A DNA stretch of 64,000 nucleotides from contig NC_092628.1 in the NCBI RefSeq assembly GCF_039555335.1, forward strand, positions 68,204,292-68,268,291, read 5' to 3'. The translations under genes were made by a program, and so were the position numbers. This DNA is from Amphiura filiformis (Eukaryota; Echinodermata; Ophiuroidea; Amphilepidida; Amphiuridae). Below are positions 3,191-57,956 of this stretch, one piece after another (position 1 is the first letter of the stretch; every line of letters begins with the position of its first letter). The notes under the pieces were generated by a model, which was given only the letters and a program-made list of their open reading frames with translations, was not told the DNA's origin and made no database searches.

Positions 3191-6165
3191 TAAGCATTAA
3201 GTGTTGGATGCCAAAGTTAGTAAGCATTGGGTATTGGGTTAGTTAGTTAGTGAGCATTTGGTATTAGACGCCCAAGTTAGTAAGCATTAGGTGATGGATG
3301 TCAAATTTAGTAAACGTTATGTGTTGGATGCCAAAGTCAGTAAGCAATAGGTATTGGGTGCTCAAGTTAGTAAGCCTTTGGTATTGGGTGCCCAAGTTAG
3401 TAAGCATTAGGAATTGGAAGCCCAAGTTAGTAAGCATTATGTATTAAGTGCCCGAGTTAGTAAGCATTATGTATTAAGTGCCCGAGTTAGTAAGCATTAA
3501 GTATTGAATGCCCAAATTAGTAAGCATTAGGTATTGGATGCCCGAGTTATTATAAAGCATTAGCTATTTGATACGAAAGTTAGTAAGCATTATATATTGG
3601 ATGCCAACGTTAGTGAGCATTAGGTATTGGGTGCCCAAGTTTGTAAGCGTTATGTATTAAATTCTCAAGTTAGTAACCACTACGTATTGGGTACCCAAGT
3701 AAGTAAGCAAGAGGCATTGGATGCCCAAGTTAGTAACCACTATTTATTGGGTGCCCAAGTTAGTAAGCATTGGGTATTAGTTGCCCATGTTAGTGAGCAT
3801 TAAGCACTGAATGCCCAAATTAGTAAGCATTAGGTATTGGATGCCCGAGTTAGTAAGCATTAACTTTTGGATACCTAAGTTAGTAAGCATTAAATATTTA
3901 TACCAAAGTTAGTGAGTATTAGGTATTGGGTGACCAAGTTAGTAACCACTATTTATTGGGTGCCACAGGTAGTAAACATTAGGTATTGGAAGCCCAAGTT
4001 AGCAAGCATTAGGTATTGAACGCCCAAGTTAGTAAGCATTATGTATTAAGTGCGCGAGTTAGTAAGCATTAAGTATTGAATGCCCAAATTAGTAAGCATT
4101 AGGTATTGGATGCCCGAGTTCGGAAGCATTAGCTATTGGATACCAAAGTTAGTAAGCATTATATATTAGATACCAAAGTTAGTGAGCATTATGTATTGGG
4201 TGCCCACGTTTGTAAGTATTAGATATTGAATTCTCAAGTTAGTAACCACTAGGTATTGGGTACCCAAGTTAGTAAGTATTAGTTATTGAATTCTCACGTT
4301 CGTAAGGTATTATGTGCCCAAGTTATTAGGCATTAGGCTGGATGCCCAAGTTAGTAAGCATTATGTATTGGATACCAAGTTAGTAAGTATTATATATTGG
4401 ATACCAAAGTTAGTAAGCATTAGTAATGTATGCCCAAGTTAGTAAGCATTAGTATTGTATGTCCGAGTTAGGAAGCATTAGCTATTGGATACCAAAGTTA
4501 GTAGGCATTATATATTGGATACCAAAGTTAGTGAGCATTAGGTATTGGTGCCTAAGTTTGTAAGCGTTAGATATTGAATTCTCAAGTTAGTAACCACTAG
4601 GTATTGGGTACCCAAGTTAGTAAGCATTAGGTATTGAATTCTCACGTTCGTAACCACTAGGTTTTGGGTGCCCAAGTTAGTAAGCATTAGGTGCCCAAGC
4701 TAGTAAGCATAATGTCTTGGATGCCCAAGTTAGTAAGCATTAGGTATTGGATACCAAAGTAAGTAAGCATTAAATATTGGATACCAAAGTTAGTAAGCAT
4801 TAGGTATTGGGTGCCCAAGTAAGTAAGTGTTAGGTATTGGGTGCCCAAGTTAGTAAGTACTATGTATTGGATGCCTAGGTTAGTAACCACTATTTATTGA
4901 GTGTCCATGTTTTAAGTATTATATGCACAAGTTAGTAAGCATTAGGTATTTAGGTGTCCAAGTTATATTGGATACCAAAGTTAGTGAGCATTAGGTATTG
5001 GTGCCCAAGTTTGTAAGAGTTAGATATTGAAATCTCAAGTTAGTAACCACTACGTATTGGGTGCCCAAGTAAGTAAGTAATATGTATTGGATGCCTAAGT
5101 TAGTAACCACTATTTATTAAGTATTATATGCACAAGTTAGTAAGCATTAGATATTAGGTGCCCAAGTTATTAGGCATTAGGTATTGGACGCCCATGTTAG
5201 TAAGCATTATGTATTGGATACCAAGTTAGTAAGTATTATATATTGGTACCAAAGTTAGTAAGCATTAGTATTGTATGCCCAAGTTAGTAAGCATTATATT
5301 ATTTTGGATACCAAGCGTTAGGTATTGAATTCTCAAGTTAGTAACCACTAGGTTTTGGATGCCCAAGTTAGTAACCACTATTTATTGGGTGCCCAAGTTA
5401 GTAAGCATTAGGTATTAGGTGCCCAAGTTACTAAGCATGAAGTATTGAATGCCCAAATCAGTAAGCATTAGGTATTGGATGCCCGAGTTAGCAAGCATTA
5501 GCTATTGGATACAATCAAAGTTAGTTAAGTGTACTGAGGTTTTTAGATCAACATCTAGGCGTTGTGCCTGTGCATAGCGCACTATAAATCACTGTTTTTT
5601 TCTTCTTTTTAGTAAGTATTATATATTGGATACCAAAGTTAATGAGCATTAGGTATTGGGTGCCCAAGTTTGTAAGCGTTAGGTGTTGAATTCTCAAGTT
5701 AGTAACCACTAGTTTAGGGTGCCCAAGTTAAAGCATAATGTGCTCTAGTTAGTAAGCATAAGGTATTTTATGCCCAAGCTAGTAAGCATTATGTATTGGG
5801 TACCCAAGTTAATAAGCATTATGTATTGGGTGCCCAAGTTAGTAAGCATTAGGTATTGGATGCCCAAATTGATAAGCATTATGTATTAGGTGCCCAAGTT
5901 AGTATGCAGTAGGTATTGGATGCCCAAGTTAGTAAGCATTATGTATTAGGTGCCCAAGCTAGTAAGCAGTAGGTATTGGATACCAAAGTTAGTAAGCATT
6001 AGATATTGGATACCAAAGTTAGTAAGCCTTGGGTATTGGGTGCCCAAGTTAGTTAGTTAGTTAATTTGGTACACACGTTATTAAGCATTATAGGTAATAG
6101 GTGGCCACGTTATTAAACATTTATAGTATTGGATGCCCAAGTCAGTAAGCATTAGGTATTGGGCG
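3190..6165. repeat. 3 kb minisatellite, unit about 29-30 bp
   Basis: Roughly 100 degenerate tandem copies of a unit like TTAGGTATTGGATGCCCAAG followed by TTAGTAAGCA. Variants (AACCACTATTTATT, GATACCAAAG) recur in blocks, so a higher-order structure is likely. The array is interrupted at about 5530-5615 by unrelated DNA containing GTTGTGCCT.TGC.TAG.GCACTATAAAT, which also occurs at about 38775-38815. A small open frame on the minus strand (4687-4890) is only the repeat read in one frame. Confidence 0.9.
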
Positions 6166-7373: not shown

Positions 7374-7444
7374 ATGTTGGCAAGAATCAGGAATCAATTG
7401 TCAGCTTCATATTTGTTTCTTCTTGTGTTTCTGTCCAGTTTGTT
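7374..7444 (+). CDS. Receptor-like gene, exon 1 (signal peptide)
   Basis: Encodes MLARIRNQLSASYLFLLVFL and continues SSL: basic residues, then a hydrophobic core, typical of a secretory signal. The donor is TT/GTAAGT with two bases carried over. The A at -3 of the ATG favours this start. Without this exon the downstream chain has no signal sequence. Confidence 0.65.
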
Positions 7445-10400
7445 GTAAGTATGATATTATACATGTAATCCCGGGAATGTGATGATCCAATTGTATATTT
7501 TCCGGGTAAAAATAAATTACATTTATGTGTAACAATAGTCCACACTGACATATCCACAAATTCTTATCTAAGTAATTTGAATAAATCTTTTGCTACTTCC
7601 CCTCATCAGTAACTTGCATAGTGGTCGGGAGTTTTAATTATAATTATTAGTAATAATATTATAAACCTTTGCAAACAGGGAGGCAAATAACACTAGAGCT
7701 ACACAAGCCTCGAAATAAGCAGGTACCCAGGAGCCATTTACCCAACGGTCATAACATTTTGGCTCCTGGTTCACACCAAAATCATATGAACCAGACTCTA
7801 CATTTAATCAAACATTAGAGCCTGGTATAGTTAAACCAGTTTAAGTATGTACAATTAAAATCTAAATAACCCCTAGCTCTTTAAAAAATGGCTACTGGTT
7901 CACTGTGAGGTTCTTTTGAAATAGATTTGAAACATGTATGATTTGAAATAAATCCATTTGCCCATTTCAAGTTCTTTAGCATGTAAATATAGCTAAAAGT
8001 ATTTATAATAATAATTTTGGTAATCAATCTACGCTTTAATAAAAGAATCTGTTCTCAGGTGCGTATTTTTTTTTTTGTTAGGGGCCTACTTCTTACACCT
8101 TTTGGCTGATTTTACCTGGTTCCCTATTATTTTTTACAACATTGGAGCCTGCCCAGCAAACACAAAAACGTTTAAAAAACGTTTTAAATAAGTTATATTT
8201 TGGCTTTTGGTTTAGGTAAAAACGTTTTAATAACATTAAAATGTCGGGTTTATATAAAGGTCATGATAACGTTTTAAAACGTTTTGTATGAAAACACACT
8301 ACAACAATATTTTTAAATGTTTTCAAAAAATGTTATAGTAAACTATTTTTGCAAACATTTTTGCCAAATATTGTGTCAATATTTAAATAACACTATGTTA
8401 AAATATTTGAACCCAGCAAACACAGAAATGTTCTTAAAATGTTTTTTTCAAAACCTTTTAATAACATTTAAATGTCGGGTTATATAAATGTCATGAAAAC
8501 GTTTTTAAAACGTTATTGAAAATATTTTGGGCAAACATTTTTCGCAAAATATTTTTTCAACACCAAAATAACATTATGTTTAGAATGTTTTGTATCAAGT
8601 TTTCGAGAATGTTTTTGGAATGTTATTAAAACGTTCTTATACCCTTTATATAACCCGACATTTAAACGTTTTCTGTAAAACATTTTTGTTCGATGAGCAG
8701 TAAATTATCAAAAAAATGTTTTTTAAGGTTATGAAAACGGTTTATACTCTTAATATACCCTTTTTATAACCCGACATTTAAACGTTTTCTGACAACCTTT
8801 TATAACCTTTTGCGAATGATGTCGAAAACGCTAGGTGTATGTTACTTTAATATAAGAATGGGCAAAATAAACATTATAATATCTGGGAAATTTCAATATA
8901 ATTCGGCGGTCATTAGGGGACGTGCAATAATTATGTGTACCCCGGGTTGGTGAATTGTGGGGAGGGAGAGGCAAAGATTTTGTGGCAGACCAAAATGGGG
9001 GTTGGGGGGTAAGCATTATTTTGCAACTCGAAAGGGGGGGGGGGCAAGTGATTTTTGGCAGGTCGAAAGAGGGGAAAACAATTTTTGGCACAGATGTTTT
9101 GGGCACCGTTCTATAATTATTACCCATAAAAAAGGTGTAAGGAAACTTACAGGAACACGTTCAAATATGCAAAATTTCCTGCTCGCTGCGGAGGGGGTTG
9201 GCATGTCGAAAGGAGGGTGGGTGTGGGGGGGGCAAACGATGTTTGGCAGACCATTGTGAGAATTCACCACCCCGGTGTACATAAATATTGCACAGCCCCT
9301 TCTTACTGCCAAATGGCAATTTTGTCCCATACGTCAATGATCATATCTTCTTCCATACGTCAATGATCATATCTTCTTCTTCTTCTTCTTCTCCTTCTCC
9401 TTCTTCTTCTTCTTCTTCTTCTTCTTCTTCTTCTTCTTCTTCTTCTTCTTCTTCTTCTTCTTCTTCTTCTTCTTCTTCTTCTTCTTCTTCTTCTTCTTCT
9501 TCTTCTTCTTCTTCTTCTTCTTCTCCTTCTTCTTCTTCTTCTTCTTCTTCTTCTTTGAGGCATCGAGCGAGGTGAAGTCTCCGCGGGGTCCTTCTTAAGG
9601 GCGTTCCATTTCCTGCTGGTGTGTGGGAAGAAGGAAGCCAAGTAAGTCTGGGAGCTGCAGTATCCGAAATAATGATGTAAATTACATTAAGTAATATAAC
9701 ATAACGATTTCTTATATATTTCCAACAGATTATCATGTTCTTTACAATACATGTATTATAATGCTGGGAGAATGATGTGGAGTAGATTGTTTTCTGCTGA
9801 ATCATGTTATTGTAACGGCGGTGAAAACTCTTATGATGATTATGTGGTAGAGATGTTGAGTTGTGTTTTCTTCTTTGAAGATACTGATGCTGATTTTGGA
9901 CCGGATGGTAATTTTACAATACTTGTTTTCTTTGATGCTTGAATGCACATTTATAGACGAAGAACACCATTTTCTACAATTTCGCGTATGTGTTTTGAAA
10001 AAATTCCCCCCTCTTTTGTGTGGATCGCGTTTCCTTTAGCAGAAATCATCCCATAGTGCGAAATTTCCGACGAGCTTGCTACCGTATCTTACCCACAGAT
10101 ACAAGGAGTGCAGGGTTCAATCACACATTTCTGAAATTGACAAATTGAATTTTACTTATTTAAAAATGGCGAGTTTTGGCGGCCACTCTTGTATTATGAA
10201 TATTTTAAGTGATATAAGTAATTCACATGTTGATATTAATAACGATAATGTTGGCTGATTGTTTACTTTCAGAAACCAGGAATCTTTTCAACCGAAATGC
10301 TAACAGATTGTTTTTGACATCTACTGAAGAGTAAGGAAACTAAAATAATACTCCACGATTTATGTACCAGTGAACAACAACACAACTGCGTTTACAAACG

Positions 10401-13400
10401 CACTTATATAGTGGGTATGCCGGGGGGGGGGTGTCGGGAGGTACCGGGGGGAACAAAGCTGCACTTTTACCAGATAGCAATTGAACCGGCTTTTAGCGGG
10501 GGAAGGTCATAGAACGTTACACAGGGTCAAATTTCAAACTTGCTCAAACTGTGTTAAAACCAATTCCGATGTACTCCTCTAGTCACAAGGATTCAGAAAA
10601 AGTATAGTTTGACCTATCTAGGACCAGAGAAGATGAGTCTCATCTTCTCTGCTAGGACGTACCGTTCTTGAGTCATACCGAAAAGGTCTAAGGTTACGGG
10701 GTTTTTTTTTGGGGGGGTCAAAAGAAAAGGATTCTAGAAAATTGAGAGAATCCCAAAATGGTTCTTTCTGGAATTAACAGAACCTTTTTCATGCACAAAA
10801 TGGTTCTTTATGGCCTTTGCAGAACCTTTTTAGTTCTTCATAAATCTAATTAAGGTTCAACATACATTGCAGTTTAAGAACTTATCGGTTCCACTTGGAA
10901 ACATTTTTCTAAGAGTGTGCAATTTCTTCGATTATCTTCCTTATAGAGAGTGTCTCGAAAATGATGCACATGGAAGTACGTCTGGCATTATTTCTATAGG
11001 AAATGCTATCAGTAAAGGTCAGTATAGTCACTTCCCGACATTTGGACGGTTGACAATTTTGTTTTCAAATTAAAGATCTCCTTCACTCCCAAACTAAACT
11101 CACGGGCCCAAACTACACTCACGCTATATGGTGTTTCGTAAAGATCGTAATAATGGTAAAGCAAGAGGAGGCATTTTTGTTGCTGTCCACACTTCTCTGG
11201 TAGCCAAGGCTGAGCCAATCTTGATAGAAAAATCCAGAAAAAAATTAAATATACAATGATACTTCTGGCGGATGACTGTATCATGTCTAGTGCAGGGCAA
11301 TACATTCAAAAATCGTTTCACCTATCGCTATGGTAATTAATCCTGTTACACCGAATACAATAAGTCATGTAAGTTGTGGAAACAGCGTTTTTGTGACAAT
11401 CAATATTCTTTGGACCATGTAAATGTATGTCAAGGTTTGGAGCTGTTTGGAAATGTTACAAGGTTTTTCTTTGATTTTTAACAGCAAATACATCATGCAG
11501 TGATGATTCGGAACTTACGTTTGAAATCCGAAACACATTAAGGTTAGACCACGAGTTGTCAATGGTGTTCTGCACGTTTGAATATCATGACGATCCCTTG
11601 GATGACGATTACACATCATTAACGGTTCTCTCCGATGGTACATGTCCGACACTAACAGACGAGATTAAACAAAATGGAGTATACTGTCCAGTTGCCAAAG
11701 ACACTGTGATCCCAACTTTGTTGAGCATGTAAGATAAATAAACTCATAATGATGCATAATATCGAGTTCAAATATCTTTGCTTTTTAATTAGAAAATATA
11801 AATGCTAGCCGTATAGTATTAAACATGGGCAATGTGGTAAATGTTTACGTCAATCCGGCAATCATAACATCACGCCTTATATGTTAGAAAAATAATTATC
11901 AAGCACGAATCACATGGTTTTATTCAAAACAAGCTCATATTGACCATAAAACGAATAAAAACAGTCGGCTCTCAACACGCGATATTCAAAATTCCCGCTC
12001 CAAAATTGTCTAAGTGGAATGACGTAATGGTTATTTGTGCTCAATTGTCGTCAGCCTTCATTGTATTACTGGGACGTCATTGCACTCGACAATTTCGAAC
12101 CCCGGGAATTTTGAATATCGCGTATTGAGAGACGGGCGTTTTTTATTCGTTTTTATGGTTACTATGAGTTTGTTTTAAATCAGACCACGTGATTCGTGCT
12201 TGATAATTATTTTTCTTACCTACAAGGAATAATGTTGTGATTGCCGGGGACCCCCTTTTTAAGAGATAGTCACCACAAAAGTGAGCACGGGGAAATTGTC
12301 GGGTCATGAAGTATCGACACCACTTATCTCCGGGACATATCTTTGACAGGTTAGGAATATCGTTTTAGATAATTGCTTCATTATTTTATTTTTCCAGAAA
12401 CGATTCACGAATGGGGACTAGGTAATCTGGCTAAAACCCCATCTGACAGCATGTTTGACCTGTTATACCAGTGTCTCGGTTCAAATTCTGTTTAAATTGC
12501 CCCTATAGGCATAAATAATTGTGTAACTATTTTTGTTCAATTTCAAATATGAATGAGACAGACACGGAATAAATGACGCAAGGCATTGTCGTTATGAGCT
12601 GCGGTGGCGTAGCGTCATAGGGGCACGTGCCCTCCAATCCATTACAAAATTAAAAAAATCCCATAGGAAAATTGCCAAAAAACGGCTTGTGCCCCCAATC
12701 AGACCCGGTGCCCCCCCCCCAATCGGATGACGTCACTGATGAGCTGACTTTTATGAAACATTTGAACCATGCCAGCTCAGATTCCATGGCTATCAGAATA
12801 ATTATCTCGAATTTGTCTCTATTTCCAGAACTCAGACCCCAATGACGTTGATAACGACAAACACGACAGGAGATGCAGATCAGAGTAAGGCCAAGTAAAA
12901 TAAATAACATGTACATATCGTCCCCGCCCTCACCGAGTTTTGGAGATTTTAAAATATTTTTGTTATTTTTCTTATATTTGCTCCCTTACTTTGTCTCTAA
13001 AATTGTTGTTATGAAAAGACATGTAAAGAAGTTCTTGGTTATCATTTATCATGTTTATAAACACATTGCAAACACTATCTTCAATCTAGGGGTAGGGCTT
13101 TGGGGAAATAACAAAAATATTAAGGGCTTCCCCGTTTCACCGATTTTTGAAAAAGTTTGGACGATATAGATGTTATTATTTTTTTACTTGGGCTAATATG
13201 TTTTGTTTTGATTTGTATTCTTTTGTTTTACTTTTTTCATGATGTTGTAAATCTCCTTTCTTTTCACGCTGGTTAACGATAAATAATAGAACAATAAAAA
13301 GTATTTTTAAAACACGATTCATAGTGCAGTTATGCACTATGGCAAACATGATTCGACCTTTGCAGTACTTAAACCTGGTTAACAGGAAATTACTCCAGCA

Positions 13401-16400
13401 AAATCAGTCGATAAAGTCTAGTCCATCCACCACATTGAATGGTGGGCTGCACTTATGCCCAAATATGTCACTTGCCAATCAATAATGACCCACTTGAAAT
13501 CCCCTGACTCTCTCCACTGACCAAAGTTATGGATAGATTTGGGAGTTGTTTTTGCTGTTATCTGTCATTTACATATCAGGTAGGTACGACCATTTGCAGA
13601 TGCCCCACCTACTCGGTTTTTAGCCTACATGTAATGTATACATTATTCTTGATTGACAGCAAGTACAAACAATATCCTTTAAGTGGTTTAGTTTTAATGC
13701 CCTTCGGAATAGAGCGGTCCATAAAATGAGTGATAGTCACTAAAAGTTGCTCTTCCATGCCGTGCTCTTCCTTACTAAAACACAAAAGTACGACATGATG
13801 CAGTCATGTCTACAGTAGAATTCAATTCGACCTTTGCAGGACTCAAACCCCATTAAAAGCTATTAAACCAAGATAACACTCATTGAAAACAGCTCAACTG
13901 ATTAAATCATATCTTCTCTGGTTAAATACACACATCATATGTTTTACACGTACAATGGAGCAATGCGCTGGGATTATAGTTTCAGTTGGGTGAACGATTA
14001 TAAAGCGAGCGCTAGAGAACAATTCTGTATGGTCTTTGTTTACGAAATGAGACAATACGTGCTTATTGTTAACCAGCGTTCTTGAAAATGAGAAACATGG
14101 TGGTTTGCAGACTTAACACGGTTTGGAAATAATTTCTTCATATTTTTGGTGTTATCTGTCGTTTACATATCCTTCCTAAAACACCAAAGTACGAATATTT
14201 CCAAACATCTAAATTAGCTAAAAATTTAGGACATGTTACAAAACTATATTGTCTAGAATTTTAGAAGAGTACTTTTAATATTGGCCGGTTATTTTTCACA
14301 CAGCGACGTTAACTAGGCAATGTACTATTACCTATAACATTAACTAAAACACCAAAGTACGAATATTTCCAAACATCTAAATTAGCTAGAAATTTAGGAC
14401 ATGTTACAAAACTATATTTTCTAGAACTTTAGAAGAGTACTTTTAATATTGGCCGGTTATTTTTCACACAGCGACGTTAACTAGGCATATCCCCATACTT
14501 TTAACGTACGCTATTTGTAGAGGTCACGCGTCAATGGGAAAGAGCACTGTGTATTATGTATAGGAAAACGGACAGTAACTGCAGTATGAATATTTCCAAA
14601 CATCTAAATTAGCTACAAATTTAGGACATGTTACAAAACTATATTTTCTAGAATTCCAGAGAGTACAAAAAATATTGGCCGGTTAGTTTACACACAGTGA
14701 CGTTAACTAGGCAATGCCCTATACCTCTAACATACACTGTCTGTAGAGGTCACACGTCAATGGTGAGAGCACTGTGTATTGTGTATAGGAAAATGGACAG
14801 TAACTACAGTATGAAGTTGTCACCTACATTAATAAGTATAATGTAAAAAATAAAGACAGGCATTGAGGGTACAATCATTATTTTGAACAACGTTTGCCAA
14901 TAATCGTGTAGACTAATCTTAAGGGGGTACTACACCCCTGTGGTAAATTTGTGACTATTTTTTTATTTTTCTCAAAAATTAATAACACACTGGTAACAAA
15001 AGTTATGTATATTATTGGGGCAAGAAAAATCCAATTACTACACTGAAATTTCAGTGAATCAAGACAAGCGGTTCAGTAAATATGATAGGAAATGAGGTAC
15101 ATCCTAGCGGTACCTCATTTTCTATCACAAGTATCAAACTGCTTGTCTTGGGTCACTGAAATTCCAGTGTAGTAATTGGATTCCTTGCCTCTATAATATA
15201 CATAACGTTTGTTACCAGGGTGTAATTAGTTTTGGAGAAAAATGCAAAAATAGTCACAAATTTATTGAGGGGTGTAGTACCCCCTTAACCCATTTCAGCA
15301 ACAGCAAGTAAAATAAAATACAATACACGGTATAATGGTGGGTCAAAATACCTTTGACGATAATAGTAGAGAAGCCACTTTGTGGATACATATGGGGTCC
15401 CGTGCATCAGTTTTGGACAAAGGTGCCAGCTGGGTTAGAATAAACCTTTTTATACTCAGACCCAGAATGACATACATTTGATTGGTGCGCCCGCAGCCCT
15501 GGGTCTATGTCATGGTATTATTTTTAAGTCTCTCAAAATTGCCACCTTTTTATAAAAAAAATTACATAGCTGAAGTATATAATATGCAGAAATGCTATGT
15601 TTACCTATCAGCATTATCAGTGCAATTTCAGACTTGTTCTTACCATGATTACATGGAAGGTACACAATACTAACTAGTTCTCTAAGTATTGTAGAACTTC
15701 ATTGATACCGCAATGTAATTTCGACTACTAAGTATACTAATTGATATATTTTGTACTTTCTGAATACCAGTGGCTTCGAGTCTGTACATTGCCGTTGGTG
15801 TAGGCGTTGGATCAGTTGTTATTTTCATCATTGCTATTATTGTAGTCATCGTATGTTGTCAAAGGAGGTCATATGGTCTCAACCGTAAACAGAGGTAACC
15901 AGTGGTATATTTTACATCAAACAAAAGATAATTAGGCCTACACATATCCATAATTACACATATCCTTTCTTTCTGTTCCTAATCTCAAAGCGTGCACCAA
16001 CATAATTTGTGCATTATACAAAAGCCGGTATTGACGATTCATGTCGTACTATCAAACTACTGAGTTCAGAGCAGCCTCTACAAACCCCATGTACCGGAAT
16101 TTAAAACAAAGGGGATCTAAAACCCACTTAAAGGAATAGTGCAGGCATAGATATTTAAGCGTCATACCGAATAAATATTGACTGATTACGACTTCCTCCT
16201 GCTCATTCTGATTTAAACATTTCTGGCATCCCCCTGAACTTTGTTGATGAAGCTAAAATCTTAGGCGTGTGGATCCAAAATGATCTCCGTTGGAATAAAA
16301 ACATCTCCCAGATCACATCAAAAGCAAACCGAAAACTATACATGCGGCGCATGCTGAAAAAAATTGGCTTTAATGAAGATGAGTTGGTCACCGTATACAA

Positions 16401-19400
16401 AGGCTACATTCGGCCTCTTTTAGAATATGCTGATGTAGCCTGGCACTCCTCACTCTCTGAGTCAGAGTATATAGTGCCCTGGAAAGGCTACAACGTCGTG
16501 CATGCAGGATTACGCTGGGCCAAAATTTCACCTCCTATGCTGAGGCCTTGCGGACTTGCGAGCTTGAGTCCCTGTTTGATAGGAGAGAGAACCATTGTCG
16601 CAGGTTTGCCGAAGGGCTTGCCAACTCATCGCGTACCAATGATCTTCTCCCCCCTACCAGACAGGCGAGTCATGCTCGCAAACTCCGCAATGCCCATCAC
16701 TACTCCCAGCTGCGTTTCAGAACATCCCGCTTCAAAAACAGCCCCATCCCCTATTTCGTTGATGTATTAAACAAGTAGCGCGCCGTTTTTATTCGGGTTT
16801 TCCTGCATGCACGCACATTTCAGCTTTTATATTTATTTATTGTGCAATAATAGTGAGAATTTATCGTATTTAGGGGCCTACTTGTGTCTGCCATTTTATG
16901 TTATTTTATATTATATTTTTTTCACTCATATTTATTATATTGCTTTTACTCTGTACATTGACATGTAATTTGACCTTCGGGTCACAATATGTTGGTTTTA
17001 ATAAATATACTTGAATACATGTTATACCGGTATGCACTTCAATTGGAAGATCGCATATTTGTTGTCCTTTCTTTGGTATAATCATTTTTATGTGTGTTAA
17101 AATTTCAAATGGGTAGGGGAACCACAAAAGTTTATTGGTCAAACAGATGTAAATCATTATCATTGCATATACCTCAAATCTGCCCTTTCCTATTTTTTTA
17201 GGGATACGGAAAATGGAGACCTTTCTCTACCAGATATGGTTGACAACACCGAATACACCAGTAAGTATCTTTGAAAAAAAGAAACAAAATGTGGAAAATA
17301 AATAAAATAGATACCAATCCTTAAATGCACATTCATGCCCCCGATTGACATCCGTGATTGGAGGGGAAAACATTGTTTGGGGTTTTGTTGATTGCGTGGG
17401 GTGGGTCAATCTTGACTTTACATGTGTTCATATGTCAACAAAGATTTATTTTTGTAAGGATATCCTGAGACAGGAAAGAGCACTTTTATATCAATTTTGC
17501 TTTATATACGCACATCAAATATAGCAGCACAGTGAAAGATGTTTGGGGAATTGGTGTTTGTGGGGTGTGTGTGTGGGGGTGCGTTTGTAAATGCCGTCTA
17601 ACGAGGACCTACATATGGATACACACCGTAAAACGAGGACACACCTCCAAACGAGGACGTCCTCGTTTTGAAACTATGCCCAGGATGACGTAAATGATGC
17701 ATCATGCAAATATGCATATAAGATAGCATATAAGATAGGTCCCCCATAGCGGGTATAGGACGGGTCTCAGTTGGATAGTAAGTTGCCTGGTGTGTTTGCG
17801 TGAGGTCCACGGTGTGTCGATTAAAAACGGGTGTGTAAGTCCTCGGTTAGATCCTTCTAAAGTCGAGGTCCTCGTTTGAACGTATTTACAAACAGGGGTG
17901 TGTATGTATGGGATGGAGTGTATGTGGGGGTGGGGGGTGTGGGGGTGTGTGGGTGGGTGGTGATTGTGTATGTATTATGTATATGTGTTAGTGTGTAGTT
18001 TGTGGGGGTGAGCATATTTGTGTGTTCATTATCATCACGAGTACATTTTGTGAGGATATCCTGAGACAGGAAAGAGCACTTTACTATCAAATTTGCTTTA
18101 TTCACACATCAAATATAGCAGGATAGTGAGAAATGTTTGGTGAATTGGTGTTTGTGGTAGCTATTACGCAAATAAACTGTATATATTTTGTAACAATTTT
18201 TAACATAGATTTTCGTTTCTATATCAAATTATTTATCTTTTTCTGCTTTTTTGTGGTCATTTTTATTCTATAAACTGTACATTTGTGGCAAAATTGAGGG
18301 CGCTATTTACATATATTTTAAATTTAAATTAACCAAATAATATGAGTTATACCTAACATTTCATGATAAAAAGTGTTTGGAAAATCCCCTTGTCATTTGT
18401 AAGTCTTTTGGCTGATGTTCTAATATCATTATACAAGTGTTTACCCTTGTAAAGATGCAAACAAGATTTAAGATAAATAGCGCCATCATTGTTCAACTTT
18501 TCTTTAAAATGACCCCGTTTTACAAAGGCTACCATCAAACAACCGGCCAGGTGCAGGGTGTGTGAGGATGGGATGGTATGTGTGGTTAGTGGTAGTGGCG
18601 TGAAGATCCGTTTGTGAGCGTGTTTGTGCATGCTCATTTGTCATCATAACATCACAAGAATTAGTTTTATGTGTGCGTATTATGAAGAGCTTTGTTGCAA
18701 TTGACGCCCTTACATCTACTTTTTGACTTTGAGTATGACTTGTTCTAGTTGGTTCAATTTGGGTTCGGATAAAGTGTTGATGAATAGAAACTAAAAGAAT
18801 AGGTTTGGTACAATTTTCAAGCCTTCCTATTTATTTTATTATTTATTTTATTATTTATTTTATATCGCGCCTTTTGTGGATGCAAGGGCTTTTGCAACAA
18901 AATAAATTTACCCCTTTTCTAGAAACCACCTTTGCAATCAAATTTGAGCCCATTTGTTTGCACTACTTTATGTAATTTGACTAATGGTTTCAAAATCAAA
19001 AAGAAAATTTGAAATATCTCATTTACTTTTTTAATTATGAATTTTCAATTAAATCCGGCAAAATGCCATTTTTGAGTATTTCCGAAGCTACAACTTTTGT
19101 TAACTATATACAATAATGTTTTTCAAGCATAGTGACTCCAAAACAGTTCCTTTTGGTTTTAATAGTTAAAGAACATTCCAGGCTTCTATTATACATCAAA
19201 AAAGTATTTTCCTAAAATTTTATATTCATTTTAAGTTCAGATTTTCGAAATTTCCCTAAAATTTCCCAAATGGGAAATACGCGTACGATATCTCCGGAAG
19301 GGAAGATGGTATGAAGGTCAAACAGCCACCAAAATGTGTACTTTTACCCACACTATAATGTCATGCCAATAACTCAATTTCAGCCAGAGGTGGATATAAG

Positions 19401-22306
19401 GGCTTTTGCAACAGAGCTCTTTATATGTGGTAGTGGTATTATGGGGGTAGATCCGTTTGTGAGTATGATAGTGTGTTCATTTGTCATCACAAGTTAATTT
19501 TTGTAAGGATATCCTGAGACAGGAAGAAACACTTTAATATTTCCTCTATTCACCAATCAAATACAACAGGACAGTGAATTGTGTTTCGTGCAGCTGTGTA
19601 TATGGGGTGTGGGGTGTGGTTGTGTGATTTGTGGGGTGAGGGGTGGGGTAAATGGGTGCGAGTATAATGTAATGTAATGGGGTAGATCGGTTTGAGAGTA
19701 GTTGTGTGTTCATTGTAAACACGAGTACATTTTGTAAGGATATCCTGAGACAGGAAAGAGCACTTTACTATCAAAGTTGCATTATTCATACATCATGAAA
19801 AGCTATGAAAGACGTTTCGTGTATCTGTATGTTTGAATATGTGGAGGTGCATGGATGTGGATATGTAGTGTGTATTGGTGTGGGAATGCGTATATGTGGT
19901 ATTGGTATTATGGGGGTAGATCGGGTTGTGAGTATGTTTGTGTGTTCATTGTCATCAGGAGAACATTTTGTGAGGATATCCTGAGACAGGAAAGAGCACT
20001 TTACTATCAAATTTGCTCTATTCGCACACCAACTTTAACGGGACAGTGAAAGATGGTTTTTGCAGCTGTGTATATGCGGTACGGGATGAGAGGTGTGGGG
20101 TGAGGGCGGGGTGGATGGGTTTTGCGTATATGTATTGTAATGGGGGTAGATCGGTTTGAGAGTGGTAGTGTGTTCATCGTCATGTGCTTTTATTTTGTAA
20201 AGATATCATGAACCAGGAAAGAGCACTTTACTAAGTTGCATTATTCACACATCAAATATATGTGCTTTTATTTTGTAAAGATATCATGAACCAGGAAAGA
20301 GCACTTTACTAAGTTGCATTATTCACACATCAAATATAGTAGCACAGTGAAAGATTTTTCGTGCATCTGTATGTGGGTGTGGAGGATTTGGGGGGGGGTG
20401 GTGCATGGATGTGAATCTTTGATTGCATAGGGCTATGGGTGTGCGTATAATGTGGTAGTGGTATCATGGGTGTAGGTCGGTTGGGAGTACGTTTTTGTAT
20501 TCATTTGTCATCACAATTTAAATATACTAGCGGTCACCCGTCTTTCGCGGTTCGTGACAATTTTACAAATTTATGCATCACTACCATCCAAGTTTTAATT
20601 TTATTGCGAACAATTTTATCAACTACCTTATTTATTACCGATTGATTATTCACATATAGCAAGACATTGAAAGTAACAGTGGGGTGGGGTGTGGTGGGTG
20701 TGTAGGGGTGTATGGATGTGGGTATGGAGTACCGGTATGTATTGTTGTGGGTATGCGTAAGGGTGGTTGTGGTATGGGGTAGGTCGGGTTGTGTGCATGT
20801 TTGTTCACTTGTCATCACAAATATATTTTTGTAAGGATACCATGAGACAGGAAAGAGCACTTTACAACAAAAGTTGCATTATTCACATATTATATATGGC
20901 AGCATAGTGAAAGATGTTCCGAGCAGCTGTATATGCGTATGTGTACACTTGAGATACTCCCCCCCCCCCCCCTGTGTGGGGTGTGTGCGGGTCAGGGGCA
21001 GTCCACGGTGGGGTGTGTATTTTGATGAAGTCCATGGTTTGATAGTAAAATATGGGTCCACGTTTGCGGACTTTTTGTTGTTGTTTGTTTCGGACCTCAG
21101 TTGACACGTCTTTAGTCGGCATTTTTTACCTAGCTCTGAAATACCTTTTATCATTAAAAATCTGTTTCTGTGGTCGTATAGCTGCGACGGAGAGGGCGGT
21201 AAGGAAAGGTTGTGCATATGTAATTAAAAAGGTTTGAGAATTGTTTTTTATGTTGCTCGTTTCAAAAACACGGGAAACACGATTCCTTTAAAAAGGAATA
21301 CAAAAGACAGCCTTCAACAACATTCTTTGCCTTTCTTGCTGTTGTTGTTGTTGTTGTTGCTGTTGTTATTTTTTAAATAAACATATGCATTTCGTAGCTA
21401 GGTAATGATACTTTATTTATACATACATAATTGTGTCCTGGTATCTGAGCAATATGTACGAGAAAATTGCTTAAATTCTTTCAGATTATTGCAATGAATA
21501 TGATGGATTTAGATGTAAGATTTTGAAGAGTGTGCGTTTATTAATATTAAAAAAAGTAACAACGTTCGTGTTTCCTGCTTGTAGGTGTAGCTGTTCAAAA
21601 TGGAGCAACAGATTCTAAGACACCTGTCTATGCCAAACCCAATAAAGGCAATCGTCAAACAAACTCTAGTACTGATGATAGTGGCTACGAGAAAGCACCT
21701 GCCGCAAAACCACGGAATTCCGGTTATGAAGAAGCTACTCTATCTCCCATACCACGATTGGACAACTACGAGAAGGAACCTCCTGCCACTCCACCAAGAC
21801 CACGCTCTGCTGTACGTACATCAACCCCAGCCGCTGGGTATGAAGAGGCTAACCTCATAACGCCACGCGTGGATTCAACTGGATATGAAGACTCAACTCT
21901 CACAGGCACCAAAGACAACTTCAAGACACCAGCAGGTCATTCGACGGGCTACGAAGACAACTTTGTCACACCTGCTACGGGAATGAAGGATACGAGTAGC
22001 GGATATGAGGACAACTTTGTGACACCCAGGGGAGGCTCTGGGTATGAAGATAATTTTGTGACACCTCACACTGGGATTAAAGAATCGGTTAAATATGACC
22101 ACTTGAAGCGTAAGATTGATTTAGATGACACCCATAATTCTGATAGTAATTTAGATGTAGGAGGAGCCGATGGGTATGGTGAAATACGAAAACAATCTGA
22201 GCTGGTAGATGCAGAAGAGTATCAACATCTGAGTCATGATAAAAACCCTAGCAGCGCCGAGCCTGGATATGGGAAGCTTAGAAAAGACAAACAGGATAAA
22301 TCATAA
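7374..22306 (+). CDS. Novel single-pass receptor-like protein with tyrosine-motif tail
   Basis: Ten exons join with compatible phases: 7374-7444, 9729-9907, 10273-10330, 10947-11017, 11485-11728, 12398-12421, 12829-12884, 15771-15894, 17202-17260, 21585-22306. The coding total is 1608 nt, encoding 535 residues plus a stop. Residues 1-23 form a signal peptide. Residues 24-215 are a Cys-containing ectodomain, and 216-234 a Thr-rich stalk with possible N-glycosylation. Residues 240-264 are the membrane span, followed by CCQRR as a stop-transfer. Residues 265-535 form a cytosolic tail with 14-15 tyrosines. Eight GY[ED]-type units (Y330-Y449) include three copies of GYEDNFVTP. Then come four YxxL/I motifs: Y466, with Val at -2 (ITIM consensus), Y493 (DGYGEI, hemITAM-like), Y508 and Y524. 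Phosphotyrosine signalling through SH2 partners is inferred from these motifs. The ectodomain matches no family I can name. A possible AATAAA lies at 22892. The exon chain is by splice signals only; no transcript was available. Confidence 0.75.
8152..8832. mobile_element. CCCAGCAAACAC-type MITE, right end decayed (intron 1)
   Basis: Begins CCCAGCAAACACAAAAACG and parallels 57957-58646 throughout (ATGTCGGGTTATATAAA, CACTACAACAATATTTT, GACAACCTTTTATAACC). The right terminus is mutated to GTCGAAAACGCTAGGTGTAT instead of ending in TTTGCTGGG. An internal second CCCAGCAAACACA at about 8412 suggests a dimeric structure. Confidence 0.75.
8916..9299. mobile_element. Fold-back element with G-rich interior (intron 1)
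   Basis: Inverted termini of about 38 bp (8916-8960, GGGGACGTGCAATAATTATG; 9255-9299) flank a G-rich interior with degenerate repeats of TTTTTGGCAGG.CGAAAG.GG. A related terminus, GGGACTGTGCAATAATAATG, occurs at 63611. No coding sequence. Confidence 0.65.
9374..9555. repeat. (CTT)n trinucleotide tract, about 180 bp
   Basis: Nearly pure TTC/GAA repeat of about 60 units with a few CTC interruptions near both ends, in intron 1 of the receptor-like gene about 170 bp before exon 2. Long GAA/TTC tracts are known to form triplex DNA. The Ser-, Arg- and Glu-homopolymer frames here are artefacts. Confidence 0.95.
9729..9907 (+). CDS. Receptor-like gene, exon 2 (ectodomain)
   Basis: Acceptor TTTCCAACAG, donor GATG/GTAATT. 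Encodes residues 24-83, with C27, C50, C52 and C69 and an aromatic-acidic stretch CVFFFEDTDADF. The frame is open across the whole exon and matches the incoming phase. Some similarity to exon 5 (Cys, Phe and Asp spacing) suggests a duplicated module. Confidence 0.65.
10273..10330 (+). CDS. Receptor-like gene, exon 3
   Basis: A 58-nt exon (acceptor TACTTTCAG, donor GAAGA/GTAAGG) encoding ETRNLFNRNANRLFLTSTEE. Supported by splice signals and by a phase that fits exons 2 and 4. No motif. Confidence 0.55.
10755..10850. repeat. Short direct repeats AATGGTTCTTT..AGAACCTTTTT
   Basis: Two clear copies and one partial of a unit of about 50 bp (ATGGTTCTTT, then CAGAACCTTTTT), which is itself inverted-repeat-like (GGTTCT/AGAACC). 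In intron 3 of the receptor-like gene. Confidence 0.5.
10947..11017 (+). CDS. Receptor-like gene, exon 4
   Basis: A 71-nt exon (acceptor CTTCCTTATAG, donor AAAG/GTCAGT) encoding residues 104-126, ECLENDAHGSTSGIISIGNA and onward. It is required for phase: without it exon 3 would join exon 5 in a frame with an immediate stop. Confidence 0.6.
11485..11728 (+). CDS. Receptor-like gene, exon 5 (ectodomain)
   Basis: The largest ectodomain exon, residues 127-207, with C131, C156, C180 and C194, an NTS glycosylation site at N128 and an acidic segment FEYHDDPLDDDY. Acceptor TTTTTAACAG, donor GCAT/GTAAGA. The internal GATG/GTACAT could be a cryptic donor, but the frame reads on with a sensible Cys-containing sequence. 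Confidence 0.7.
11886..12217. mobile_element. Fold-back element of about 330 bp (intron 5)
   Basis: Long arms: the left begins AGAAAAATAATTATCAAGCA and the right ends with its inverse, TGCTTGATAATTATTTTTCT. Complementarity continues through TTTTATTCG and CGCGATATTCAAAATTCC to a short centre near 12040. A MITE-type hairpin with no coding potential. Confidence 0.8.
12398..12421 (+). CDS. Receptor-like gene, exon 6 (24-nt microexon)
   Basis: A 24-nt exon (acceptor TATTTTTCCAG, donor ACTAG/GTAATC) adding eight residues (INDSRMGT and a shared Arg codon) with an NDS glycosylation site. It is symmetric in phase (2-2), so it could be skipped without breaking the frame. That makes it a candidate alternative cassette exon and also the least certain exon. 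Confidence 0.45.
   Translation, partial: KRFTNGD
12829..12884 (+). CDS. Receptor-like gene, exon 7 (Thr-rich stalk)
   Basis: A 56-nt exon (acceptor CTATTTCCAG, donor CAGA/GTAAGG) encoding RTQTPMTLITTNTTGDADQ. The Thr-rich, probably O- and N-glycosylated stalk directly before the membrane span is typical of type I membrane proteins. Confidence 0.6.
13315..14180. repeat. Degenerate direct duplication
   Basis: ATTCGACCTTTGCAG..CT.AAACC occurs at about 13351 and 13828. TGTTATCTGTC.TTTACATATC occurs at about 13556 and 14150. This suggests an old duplication of about 500 bp in intron 7. Confidence 0.45.
14181..14825. repeat. Tandem repeat, two periods (about 167 and 235 bp)
   Basis: Blocks beginning AGTACGAATATTTCCAAACA recur at about 14188, 14354 and 14584 (the last as AGTATGAATATTTCC). 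The second and third copies carry the additional segment GTAGAGGTCAC.CGTCAATGG..AGAGCACTGTGTATT. Copies are highly similar, so the amplification is fairly recent. Confidence 0.8.
14923..15284. mobile_element. TTAA-flanked palindromic MITE, copy A (intron 7)
   Basis: Nearly perfect inverted halves starting GGGGGTACTACACCCCTGTG and ending in CACAAATTTATTGAGGGGTG followed by TAGTACCCCC. TTAA lies on both sides (14919-14922, 15285-15288). The TTAA target duplication is the hallmark of piggyBac-type insertion. A second copy lies at 42785-43144. Confidence 0.88.
15771..15894 (+). CDS. Receptor-like gene, exon 8 (transmembrane)
   Basis: Acceptor CTGAATACCAG, donor CAGAG/GTAACC. Encodes residues 235-275: a Gly/Val start (IAVGVGVGSVV), then IFIIAIIVVIV, then the cytosolic CCQRRSYGLNRKQR. 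A clear membrane helix with positive residues on the inside. The two cysteines at the inner edge are possible palmitoylation sites. Confidence 0.8.
16194..17015 (+). pseudogene. Non-LTR retrotransposon 3' fragment (CR1/Jockey-like)
   Basis: The C-terminal part of a reverse transcriptase ORF. One frame reads AKILGVWIQNDLRWNKNI, then YKGYIRPLLEYADVAWH, the conserved stretch after the RT palm. After a frameshift near 16490-16540 the frame at 16548-16778 reads LRTCELESLFDRRENHCRRF and ends at a stop at 16776. An A/T-rich 3' region follows, ending AATAAATATACTTGAATAC near 17015. 5'-truncated and frameshifted, so dead. It lies in intron 8 of the receptor-like gene, same strand. Confidence 0.8.
17202..17260 (+). 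CDS. Receptor-like gene, exon 9 (juxtamembrane tail)
   Basis: A 59-nt exon (acceptor TTTTTTTAG, donor CACCA/GTAAGT) encoding DTENGDLSLPDMVDNTEYT. It is acidic with one tyrosine (Y294). Phase 2-in and 1-out link the membrane exon to the tail exon. Confidence 0.65.
18683..19427. mobile_element. Inverted-repeat element inside the repeat field
   Basis: GAAGAGCTTTGTTGCAA..GACGCCCTTAC near 18683 is answered by the inverted ATAAGGGCTTTTGCAACAGAGCTC near 19400. The interior includes TTATTTTATTATTTATTTTA (18830-18862) and another GCAAGGGCTTTTGCAAC. Probably an element that split the surrounding tandem array. Confidence 0.55.
20520..20570. other. Possible Helentron-like terminus
   Basis: ATACTAGCGGTCACCCGTCT resembles the inverted right end (TACTAGTTCACCCGTTGC) of the element at 29519-30781. 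Short, so only suggestive. Confidence 0.25.
21338..21372. repeat. (GTT)n microsatellite
   Basis: CTGTTGTTGTTGTTGTTGTTGC-type tract about 215 bp upstream of the last exon of the receptor-like gene. Confidence 0.85.
21585..22306 (+). CDS. Receptor-like gene, exon 10 (tyrosine-motif tail)
   Basis: The terminal exon, acceptor CCTGCTTGTAG, stop TAA at 22304-22306. Residues 296-535 are hydrophilic and low in Cys. Repeats of the form [SAT]GYE[DEK] occur at Y330, Y343, Y381, Y396, Y418, Y436 and Y449, plus DNYEKEP at Y357. YDHL, YGEI, YQHL and YGKL follow at 466, 493, 508 and 524. PxxP-rich stretches (ATPPRPR) could bind SH3 domains. The frame is open for 240 codons. Confidence 0.88.
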
Positions 22307-23224: not shown

Positions 23225-25100
23225 AAAGTTTAAGGAGTGCAAAAGTAATGTCCAGAGATCTTTAGCAGAAGCCGTGCAAGAGCTGGCAGAGAGTGGTAAC
23301 TCTCAAGCTTTCTTCACAGCCCTGAAGGAAGTCTATGGACCTAGGCATTCAATTGCCTCTCCTCTTCTCAAGCTCAGGTACAACTCTTCTAACTGACAAA
23401 GATGACATCAAGATCAGATGGCAGGAACATTTTCAGGATCTCCTTAACCGACCCTCTAGCACTGCACCAAATGTCTTGGATAACCTTGTAAAACCATCAA
23501 GCAAAACTGGAATGGAAAAGCCGCCAACCATGCAAGAAATTGAAGATGCTGTCAAGTCTATGAAGAATGGTAAAGCTCATGGAATTGACGGAATTCCCTC
23601 TGAGGTGTACAAGTTTGGCGGGCCTTGCATCATCCAGCTCTGTGCAGTTTTTTCCAAAACTGCTGGGGTGCAGCTGAACTGCCCCAAGAATTTAAGGATG
23701 CAATGATTGTCACCATTTTTAAGAAGGGTGACCGCACTCAGTGTGGTAACTATCGAGGGATATCCCTGCTCTCAACTGCTGGTAAAGTTCTTGCAAATAT
23801 TCTCCTAGCCAGATTACAACAAGTTGCCAGTAAGATACTACCTGAAAGCCAATGTGGGTTCAGAGCCAGTCGATCCACAATTGATCCAATCTTCACCCTG
23901 CGCCAGCTTCAGGAGAAATCAATAGAACAGCAAAGACCACTTTACATGGTCTTCATCGACTTCACCAAAGGATTCGACACCATCGATAGAGAATTACTTT
24001 GGAAACTACTGGAGCATTATGGCTGTCCAGGCATCTTTATCAAGATCATTCGTGAATTTCATTATGGAATGCAGGCAACTGTTCTAGTTGATGGTGATAC
24101 AACTGAGTCCTTCCCGGTTTGTCATGGTGTTAAGTAGGGATGTGTGTTGGCACCAACCTTGTTTGGTCTCTACTTGGCAGCTGTTTTGGAAATGTCATCT
24201 GACAACCTATCAGATGGTCAGCATGGAGTTTTCCTCCGTTCTAGGACAGATGGCAAACTCTTTAATCTAGCCCGTCTACGTGCCAAGACCCGATGTCAAG
24301 AAGTCTGTGTGCAAGAGCTTCTATATGCTGATGACACCGCCCTGGTAGCTGAATCCATTGAAGACCTGCAGAACATGTTGGACTGTTTTGTGACTGCATC
24401 AGTTGCATTTGGCCTTACAATCAACATCAGTAAAACTGAGGTCATTTACCAACCTGCTCTTGGAACTCAGCACCAAGATCCTGATCTCTACATACATGGG
24501 AACCTGTCAAACGGGTCACCAATTTCACCTACCTGGGGAGTGTGATTTCCATGGACAATTCCGTCGATCTGGAGATCACAAGACGAATTCAGAGTGCCAC
24601 CAGTGCCTTTGGATCTCTGGAAAAAAGAGTTTGGTCCCAACGTGGTATAAGACTTGCGACCAAATGTAAACTGTATCGCGTGTTTGTCCTACCCTGTCTG
24701 CTGTATTCTACTGAGACCTACACACTCTATCGGAGACACATCAAGAAGTTAAGTTGGCAGGGCCGAGTCCCTAATGGAGAGGTGCTTCAGAGAGCCAAAA
24801 ATGGAGAGCGTAGAAGCCATCCTAGTGAAAAGCCAACTGCGCTGGGCCGGTCATGTCGTGAGGATGCCTGATGAAAGACTACCGAAAGCTGTGATGTATG
24901 CTGAACTCACAGAAGGAAAGAGAATATGGGAGACGAAAGCTAGTGACCGGGTCAATTGGAGGAAGAAGATCCACGATGCTGGGAAAACAGTGGAGCGGAA
25001 GTGAAAGGAGAAGTACCTTGAAGGATGGAGAAATATCAACTTCGACAACTGAGCCTTCATCGAACTCGATGGGCAGCCGATGATGATGATGATAATAATC
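23225..25100 (+). pseudogene. Dead non-LTR retrotransposon reverse transcriptase
   Basis: A 5'-truncated LINE. Recognisable segments in order: AVQELAESGNSQAFFTALKE; KNGKAHGIDGIPSEVYK; AMIVTIFKKGDRTQCGNYRG; ILPESQCGFRASRSTIDPIF; MVFIDFTKGFDTIDRELLWK; the catalytic LLYADDTALVAES (about 24319-24357); and the C-terminal LRWAGHVVRMPDERLPKAV. At least four frameshifts (near 23370, 23668, 24530 and 24770) and a TAG at 24135 where relatives have the Gln of KQGC make it inactive. The 3' end is a GATGATGAT/AATAAT microsatellite, typical of RTE-like tails. Exact clade unresolved. Confidence 0.92.
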
Positions 25101-29518: not shown

Positions 29519-30781
29519 TATCTACTATACTAAAATAACCAGCGAAGTCTGTCTGTCTGTCTGTCTGTCTGGTTGTCCGGCTATGCGTTTCGCCGCGCTT
29601 CGACGCATCGATCCAATATTTTGGATATGGATATGTATCGGGAAAAGCATGTTGACTGGGTGGTTTTGAAGGTCACCGGAGGTCAAGGTCAAAGGTCAAA
29701 ATTTCAAACTTTGTCCGATCGGGCCCAAACTTGGTGGGTGGAATCCTTGATACGAGGGGAATGTATGCGCGAAATAAAGTCCGAGGTCAACCGAGGTCAA
29801 AGGTCATTACGGAGGGTTCAAATTTCAAACTTTGTCCGATCGGGCTCAAACTTGGTGGGTGGAATCCTTGATACCAGGGGAATATATGCGCGAAATAAAA
29901 TGCGAGATCAACCGAGGTCAAAGGTCATTACGGAGGGTTCAAATTTCAAACTTTGTCCAATCGGGCTCAAACTTGGTGGGTGGAATCCTTGATACCAGGG
30001 GAGTATATGCGCGAAATAAAATCAGAGGTCAACCGAGGTCAAAGGTCATCACGGAGGGTTCAAATTTCAAACTTTGTCCGGTCGGGCTCAAACTTGGTAG
30101 GTGGAATCCTTGATACCAGGGGAATATATGCGCAAAATAAAATGCGAGGTCAGCCGAGGTCAAAGGTCATTACGGAGGGTTCAAATTTCAAACTTTGTCC
30201 GATTGGGCTCAAACTTGGTGGGTGGAATCCTTGATACCAGGGGAATATATGCGCGAAATAAAATGCGAGATCAACCGAGGTCAAAGGTCATTACGGAGGG
30301 TTCAAATTTTAAACTTTGTCCAATCGGGCTCAAACTTGGTAGGTGGAATCCTTGATACCAGGGGAATATATGCGCGAAATAAAATGCGAGGTCAACCGAG
30401 GTCAAAGGTCATTACGGAGGGTTCAAATTTCAAACTTTGTCCGATCGGGCTCAAACTTGGTGGGTGGAATCCTTGATATGAGGGGAACACGTAAAAATAT
30501 AATCGAGGTCATCCGAGGTCAAATGTCATCCAGGGGCTGCATTTTAAACTTCGCCTGATTTCGGGTAAAACTTGGTGAAAGTAATTCTCCATATCACGGG
30601 AGCATGAACAAAATCAAACCGAGGTCACTCGAGGGCAAAGCTCATATGGGGTCAGTATGCCCAACTGGGCTTAAAAGTGGTAGAAAGAATCCTCGAGATG
30701 AGGAGAACGTGTCAAAAAGTCATCAGGGGTCAAATAGCATTGCCATCAGTTACTCTCACAGCAACGGGTGAACTAGTATTT
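29519..30781. mobile_element. Helentron-like element with internal 121-bp array
   Basis: Left end TCTACTATACTAAAATAACC, then (GTCT)n at 29548-29572 and CGACGCATCGATCCAATATT; right end near AACGGGTGAACTAGTATTT. These end motifs resemble those of non-autonomous Helentron/HINE elements (CTATACTA.. and ..ACTAGT). No RepHel protein is encoded here, so assignment is by end resemblance only. Confidence 0.5.
29690..30540. repeat. 121-bp tandem array, about seven units
   Basis: Units with ACGGAGGGTTCAAATTTCAA, CTTTGTCCGATCGGGCTCAA and GAGGTCAACCGAGGTCAAAG recur at a fixed 121-bp step (the GGAGGG core at 29811, 29932, 30053, 30174, 30295 and 30416). Because 121 is not divisible by three, the long open frames on the + strand shift from unit to unit and are not a gene. 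Confidence 0.95.
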
Positions 30782-33056: not shown

Positions 33057-33176
33057 GTTAGGGTTAGGGTCTTAGGGTTAGGGTTACTTTAATAGGGTTA
33101 GGGTTTAGGGATAGGGTTAGGGTAAGGGTTAGGTTTAGGGTTAGGGTTAGGGGGTTACTGTTAGGGTTAGGGTGAG
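33057..33176 (+). repeat. Interstitial telomeric repeat (TTAGGG)n
   Basis: Imperfect run of TTAGGG with TTTAGGG and TTAGGGG variants. Internal to the chromosome, since genes lie on both sides. Confidence 0.95.
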
Positions 33177-33302
33177 GCAAGGTCCATTATCGGAGATTAT
33201 ATACGTACTTATTAGTACCAATATACTAGTATTGGAATATTGTATGTGTGTATGCACTTTATTCCGTAATCAATAAGTATGACAAACAAACACCTTTCTG
33301 GC

Positions 33303-33504: not shown

Positions 33505-33720
33505 TGGTTGCAGAAAGAAATTACGCGTCCCGCGCGCGTAATTTTTTTTTCTGCAACCATAACGGGACGCAAAATTTTATTAAAGCCTAACCCTAACCCT
33601 AACACTTACCCTATCCCTAACCCTAACTCTTACCCTAACCCTAACCCTAACCCTAACCCTAACCCTTTCCTATGTGTTCCTATGGGTTATAAAATTTTTG
33701 CGTCCAGTTATGGGTGCAAG
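33505..33720. repeat. Second palindrome enclosing a CCCTAA tract
   Basis: A hairpin at 33505-33556 (GGTTGCAGAAAGAAATTACG against its inverse, loop near GTCCCG) is followed by arms GCAACCATAACGGGACGCAA (33552) and the inverse at 33688-33720. These enclose the CCCTAA tract at 33585-33667. Confidence 0.75.
33585..33667 (-). repeat. Interstitial telomeric repeat (CCCTAA)n
   Basis: About 12 units of CCCTAA with variants, in opposite orientation to the tract 400 bp upstream. The Asn-Pro open frame over it is an artefact. Confidence 0.95.
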
Positions 33721-35702: not shown

Positions 35703-35712
35703 TATATATAAA
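35703..35712 (+). promoter_or_regulatory. TATA box of the ASIC gene
   Basis: TATATATAAA, 105-114 nt upstream of the start codon, in the context ATACTATATATAAAG. The paralogous copy has ATACTATATAAG at the equivalent place (63830), which supports a real core promoter. Confidence 0.6.
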
Positions 35713-35816
35713 GCACATTAGGAGCAAGTCATCGAACTATCACCAGTTTGAAACTTATACTTCGTTCACGCGTTCGTCTTGAATTGCCGCAGTTACAATA
35801 TCATTGTGATATCAAA

Positions 35817-57800: not shown

Positions 57801-57956
57801 GGACAGCGGATAGTTATTATAACATGTATAATACACCTAGCTGCTATACCCTATGTTGTATATTTCTTTCTCTGTAGTAGATGCAAGGTTCAAATACATG
57901 CAAGATTAAACAAGCCAGTGTTACCATGGTTAATCTGTATTACGTCTGAGTACAAT

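Follow-up and report, generated by a model that had tools for sequence, protein, structure and literature searches.

The 64-kb window, by which we mean the whole stretch of DNA that was analyzed, carries a ten-exon gene on the forward strand between positions 7374 and 22306. Splicing of the ten exons gives 535 codons and a stop in a single open frame, with compatible exon phases and GT...AG boundaries at all nine introns. The prediction that ten phase-matched exons encode a 535-residue type I membrane protein is therefore reproduced by the spliced model, and the ten-exon observation is confirmed from the DNA. Exon 1 (7374..7444, +) contains the start codon and signal-peptide-like residues 1-23; an in-frame TAA starts 9 bases before the ATG, position -3 is occupied by A, and the exon ends at the donor gtaagtat. 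Part 1 of the ectodomain is encoded by Cys-rich exon 2 (9729..9907, +), the least secure exon of the chain, and by exon 3 (10273..10330, +), which is also weak; both are placed by their GT-AG boundaries and reading frame. Exon 4 (10947..11017, +) begins ectodomain part 2 and is followed by the main ectodomain exon, exon 5 (11485..11728, +), with four Cys codons. Exon 6 (12398..12421, +) is only 24 nt long, phase-neutral, and supplies the N-glycosylation sequon at N209, and exon 7 (12829..12884, +) encodes a Thr-rich stalk with a further sequon at N227. The transmembrane segment (approximately residues 240-262) lies in exon 8 (15771..15894, +), where it is followed by two cysteines (263-264) and a basic stop-transfer sequence. 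The juxtamembrane cytoplasmic segment with Y294 comes from exon 9 (17202..17260, +), whose 59 nt are needed for the frame of the tail, which is broken without them. Exon 10 (21585..22306, +) encodes the cytoplasmic tail and the stop codon, and the first AATAAA/ATTAAA beyond the stop is at position 22892. A tblastn search found no paralogs of the gene within the window (best match outside the gene, E=0.55). Neither residues 1-276 nor the tail had a confirmed relative among viral contigs, as expected for an animal gene.

The introns of the gene contain many repeats. An approximately 480-base repeat in three pieces, 88-91% alike, occurs at 8358-8841 in intron 1 and 50 kb away at 58162-58641. A 260-base, MITE-like element is found at 15028-15288 in intron 7 and 28 kb away at 42806-43148; these copies are 90% alike, and there is also an inverted partner (84%). 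In intron 8, visual inspection of an ORF at 16186-16770 (+) suggests similarity to the C-terminal portion of a LINE-type reverse transcriptase, and no Pfam cut-off was reached with the 103 of its 194 residues that were searched. On the opposite strand, none of the four minus-strand ORFs in the gene region that were searched, those of at least 110 aa, has a Pfam match at cut-off, and one of the four is a Glu run from a TTC repeat. In an ORF at 12653-12985 (-), 20 residues of a Gly-rich stretch match IBIN ("induced by infection") below threshold, with E=0.0012 and 19.1 of 27 bits, probably because of composition.

Outside the gene, about 100 tandem copies of a 30-base unit fill 3191-6162 and end 1.2 kb before exon 1. 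Reverse-transcriptase-like ORFs extend across several frames at 23326-24871, downstream of the gene; 23604-24137 (+), the only ORF of this cluster that was searched, matches Pfam RVT_1 with E=1.1e-18, and the cluster is probably a decayed LINE. Farther downstream, a 121-base unit is repeated in tandem about seven times (29699-30529; 93% matches), open in plus-strand frames, and two interstitial telomere-like arrays lie in inverted orientation, with a GTTAGG repeat at 33057-33177 and CCTAAC about 400 bases on at 33586-33666. The remaining protein-coding matches are exons of an amiloride-sensitive sodium channel (ASC) at 35712-36437 and 48945-49409 (+; Pfam E=3.9e-22 and 1.2e-11) and an ORF with a cytochrome P450 exon at 57413-57850 (-; Pfam E=1.9e-13). 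No RNA families at gathering score and no tRNAs were found in the 64 kb.

Exon 10 is securely coding because its ORF outlasts those of random sequence and its internal repeat copies have diverged only synonymously. The stop-to-stop ORF of 248 aa is longer than the longest ORF in every one of 200 Markov-1 windows (maximum, 223). Within the exon, a GYE(K/E/D) series (21683..22066, +) ends in three copies of GYEDNFVTP, containing Y418, Y436 and Y449. Each pairwise comparison of these copies shows 5 base differences, 15 in total, all of which are synonymous third-position changes.

A crude exon chooser was run under four penalty settings with splice matrices and a codon score, the latter derived from exon 10 plus three exons of neighboring genes. 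Exons 4, 5, 9 and 10 were kept in all four settings, though the choice of exon 10 is not independent, as the exon is itself in the training set. Exon 6 was kept in three of four; the acceptor of exon 7 was retained each time, and its donor was moved to 12894 in two settings. For exon 9, the acceptor ranks in the top 0.3% of AG dinucleotides in the window and the donor in the top 2.3% of GT dinucleotides. Exons 1, 2, 3 and 8 were never chosen, with the exon 2 donor being used once, and with identical rescoring at penalty 7 the ten-exon model scored 94.3 versus 152.7 for the chooser optimum. The training set is small and consists mainly of polar exon 10, and the chooser is therefore biased against hydrophobic exons 1 and 8; the acceptor of exon 8 also scores low. 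Unlike these two exons, which are penalized for hydrophobicity, exons 2 and 3 are simply weak, with slightly negative coding scores (-1.5 and -1.9, respectively). Exon 6 is phase-symmetric (2 to 2), as are exons 2-3 taken together; either could be omitted without a frameshift, so the reading frame does not prove their inclusion. By arithmetic, a form lacking exons 2-3 would have 456 residues and is possible.

At the strictest threshold (21 residues with a mean hydropathy of at least 2.8, then at least 4 basic residues in 15), which was set after exon 8 had been seen, exon 8 is the sole transmembrane-plus-basic segment to pass in six frames of the 64 kb. When the settings were relaxed in four ways, the number of passing segments was 1, 2, 5 and 10, and exon 8 was included every time. 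Searching both strands for signal-peptide-like first exons returned five start/donor combinations from four ATGs, among which exon 1 ranks first in hydropathy but last in donor score; these thresholds were likewise set after exon 1 had been seen. A TMEM154 family match was rejected. The protein reached 17.7 bits against a curated cut-off of 30.3 (21.1 bits for the transmembrane piece), still scored 18.4 bits when the transmembrane letters were rearranged, and had no family listed once the segment was removed; the match therefore reflects transmembrane composition.

Residues 24-236, which would form the ectodomain, include nine cysteines and three of the four N-glycosylation sequons of the protein. 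The original prediction recognized no family here, and this holds against the libraries we searched: no match reached a curated cut-off or an E below 0.01 in Pfam-A or NCBIfam, and no PDB sequence matched below E 0.35. The best sub-threshold matches, from exon 5 or exons 4-7, were DUF7498 (E=0.039) and TIG_plexin (E=0.17). Matches to PDB chains were at chance level: the ectodomain drew an outer membrane protein (E=0.35), and portions of it drew antibody chains (0.61-0.75) and an XRE antitoxin (1.7). Neither an Ig nor a sushi family was listed up to E=10 in Pfam-A, where filters drop most matches above approximately 0.1, and the same search listed no EGF, LRR or CUB family for the protein. A CUB domain had been suggested by eye in exons 4-5. 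With a profile built from eight CUB domains, 60 of 200 shuffles reached the score of the ectodomain and 34 of 200 that of part 2, and reversed copies of the ectodomain outscored the real one. As a control, each of the eight domains was left out in turn and beat all 200 of its own shuffles (98-132 bits), a set that excludes very divergent CUBs. We also rejected an internal duplication of the two ectodomain halves, since the best local alignment was reached by 51 of 1000 shuffles. Judged against Pfam-A, NCBIfam and PDB sequences, the ectodomain is thus an orphan, which is not evidence of a new fold.

Two alternatives concern the extracellular half of the model. The exons may have been merged or mis-assigned, such that only exons 4-10 are right and the N-terminal part is either shorter, with exons 2-3 skipped, or different. 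The slightly negative coding scores and phase symmetry of exons 2-3 fit this explanation, as does the chooser's preference for other upstream exons and its omission of exon 8. However, the chooser was trained on a small and polar set, and its best model at penalty 7 discards the strongest transmembrane-plus-basic segment in the window. On balance, we regard mis-assignment as unlikely, though it deserves weight. Slightly greater weight goes to the idea that the ectodomain is a divergent form of a known beta-sandwich (CUB, Ig, TIG or similar), in which case the protein would be an ordinary receptor whose known family sequence search misses. The CUB-like look of exons 4-5 and the weak DUF7498, TIG_plexin and antibody heavy-chain (E=0.61) matches point in this direction, but no ectodomain match reaches a curated cut-off, and the ectodomain does not beat its shuffles as each of the eight left-out CUB domains does, with its reversed copies scoring higher. 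We therefore doubt this explanation while counting it as a serious possibility.

The cytoplasmic tail (residues 276-535) contains 14 tyrosines, nine of which are preceded by glycine and nine followed by an acidic residue; in six cases, positions +1 and +2 are both acidic. Its layout is as predicted, a tandem GYED/GYEE series and then four YxxL/I motifs. The tail also has a YxxP site at Y311 and, by eye, a proline-rich stretch, PPATPPRPR. Three database matches of the tail were not credited: Pax7 (E=0.00057) was below the cut-off, covered 13 residues and contained no stretch passing alone, Podoplanin had E=0.083, and a catechol dioxygenase PDB match was at chance level (E 0.75).

The four YxxL/I sites are YDHL (Y466), YGEI (Y493), YQHL (Y508) and YGKL (Y524), separated by 23, 11 and 12 residues. 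VKYDHL (Y466; 22088..22105, +) had been noted as fitting the ITIM consensus, and it does conform to (V/I/L/S)xYxx(L/V/I), the only one of the 14 tail tyrosines to do so. The hemITAM-like label given to DGYGEI calls for revision. The hemITAM pattern consists of an acidic run followed by GYxxL (DEDGYxxL), and the closest candidate in the tail is ADGYGEI, with a single acidic residue and I instead of L. The ITAM consensus is printed as YxxL/I (6-12) YxxL (PMC6433993), and the tail satisfies this rule twice, with YGEI-x11-YQHL and YQHL-x12-YGKL. The last three YxxL/I motifs are spaced within the 6-12 rule, and hence the site at Y493 is better described as the first half of an ITAM-like array, YGEI-x11-YQHL-x12-YGKL (Y493, Y508 and Y524; 22175..22279, +). 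In 20,000 composition shuffles, at least four YxxL/I motifs occurred in 0.79% (1.06% with the tyrosines held fixed), at least one ITAM-spaced pair in 1.8%, and two such pairs in 0.025% (0.06% with tyrosine positions fixed), frequencies that come from a post hoc test, run after the motifs had been seen, in which shuffling provides no phylogenetic control. A single ITIM-like site followed by overlapping ITAM-like pairs therefore appears to describe the tail better than "ITIM and hemITAM" does. Thus, the predicted receptor-like architecture with a tyrosine-motif tail is supported by the signal-like start, the transmembrane-like segment and the motifs, and its motif reading needs to change. Together, these features make it plausible, from DNA sequence alone, that this is a receptor gene, probably one that combines an orphan ectodomain with an immune-receptor-like tyrosine tail.

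We consider it moderately probable that the protein is an SH2-docking, single-pass type I plasma-membrane receptor that works like the known invertebrate ITAM/ITIM receptors. If the gene is expressed and spliced as modeled, a putative ligand or a neighboring cell would engage or cluster the ~210-residue, Cys-containing ectodomain on the cell type that bears the receptor, and Src-family kinases would phosphorylate the tail tyrosines. When SH2 preferences are applied to them, the repeated GYE(D/E) sites may together provide multivalent, acidic docking for SH2 domains. The distal YxxI-x11-YxxL-x12-YxxL array could recruit a tandem-SH2 kinase of the Syk/ZAP-70/Shark type in ITAM fashion, and Y466 (VKYDHL) could recruit an SH2 phosphatase as a possible ITIM brake. 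With the ITAM-like array and Y466 in one tail, both activation and restraint would therefore be possible. A sea-star egg transcriptome has been reported to include Syk, Csk and Src-family transcripts (PMC11593052), and these kinases are therefore not vertebrate-only. By analogy, then, the receptor would operate like ITAM/ITIM receptors, and we do not file it in any ectodomain family.

The same tail could instead belong to an endocytic, scavenger or adhesion receptor, in which the YxxL/I motifs would be AP-2 sorting signals and the GYE(D/E) sites would control the cytoskeleton by binding SH2 domains of Src-family kinases or adaptors, with no ITAM-type recruitment of Syk. YxxL/I is also an endocytic (AP-2) signal, and all four tail motifs are compatible with Yxx-phi; YxxP sites and proline-rich stretches such as those at Y311 and PPATPPRPR are features of adhesion and adaptor tails. 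However, sorting signals require no ITAM-type spacing, and shuffles seldom produce two ITAM spacings in a row, which leads us to judge this alternative improbable. At the other extreme, the gene could represent a hitherto undescribed invertebrate receptor class with its own ectodomain fold, in which overlapping ITAM-like and ITIM sites and an acidic SH2-docking array in one chain make a self-contained activating/inhibitory receptor for immunity or allorecognition; this we hold to be very improbable. If the SH2-docking reading is correct, ITAM/ITIM logic in an invertebrate outside the Ig, LRR, lectin and EGF scaffolds would show the reach of this switch across unrelated ectodomains, and phosphopeptides offer a direct test of a tail that joins three half sites to a docking repeat with synonymous divergence. 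Should orthologs prove common and annotated, the protein would be an ordinary tyrosine-tailed receptor.

Invertebrate ITAM/ITIM receptors have been described in the literature, and none was identifiable as this gene in a search of listings and text passages, which is no proof of absence. The FcγRIIA (CD32A) motif is printed with a 12-residue gap, the same ITAM spacing in the receptor's own tail that separates Y508 and Y524 here (PMC6433993). Unlike FcγRIIA as represented there, our protein has no Pfam Ig domain listed, three ITAM-type half sites rather than two, and the repeat series. Draper/MEGF10 proteins have EGF-like repeats, in contrast to the present protein, for which no EGF family is listed. 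Drosophila Draper is an ITAM receptor phosphorylated by Src42A that serves as a platform for Shark (PMC5138034), and the protein described here resembles it as a candidate invertebrate receptor with an ITAM-like tail. Amphioxus BbLcLRR is, by its title, an LRR receptor, and it is described as inhibitory, whereas no LRR family is listed for our protein; the two share ITIM or ITIM-like tail tyrosines, and BbLcLRR acts through a Src-family kinase, being phosphorylated through Lck (PMC8211107). The fester co-receptors (FcoRs) of Botryllus have IgV, sushi and two C2 Ig domains, none of which is listed for this protein, and the accessible portion of their description makes no mention of a GYE(D/E) repeat series (PMC12065747). 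In the same portion, FcoRs carry ITIM, hemITAM and core YxxI/L/V motifs in their tails (PMC12065747). Like the protein described here, they are type I receptors of similar length (520-610 aa, compared to 535) in whose long tail an ITIM and core YxxI/L/V motifs may occur (PMC12065747).
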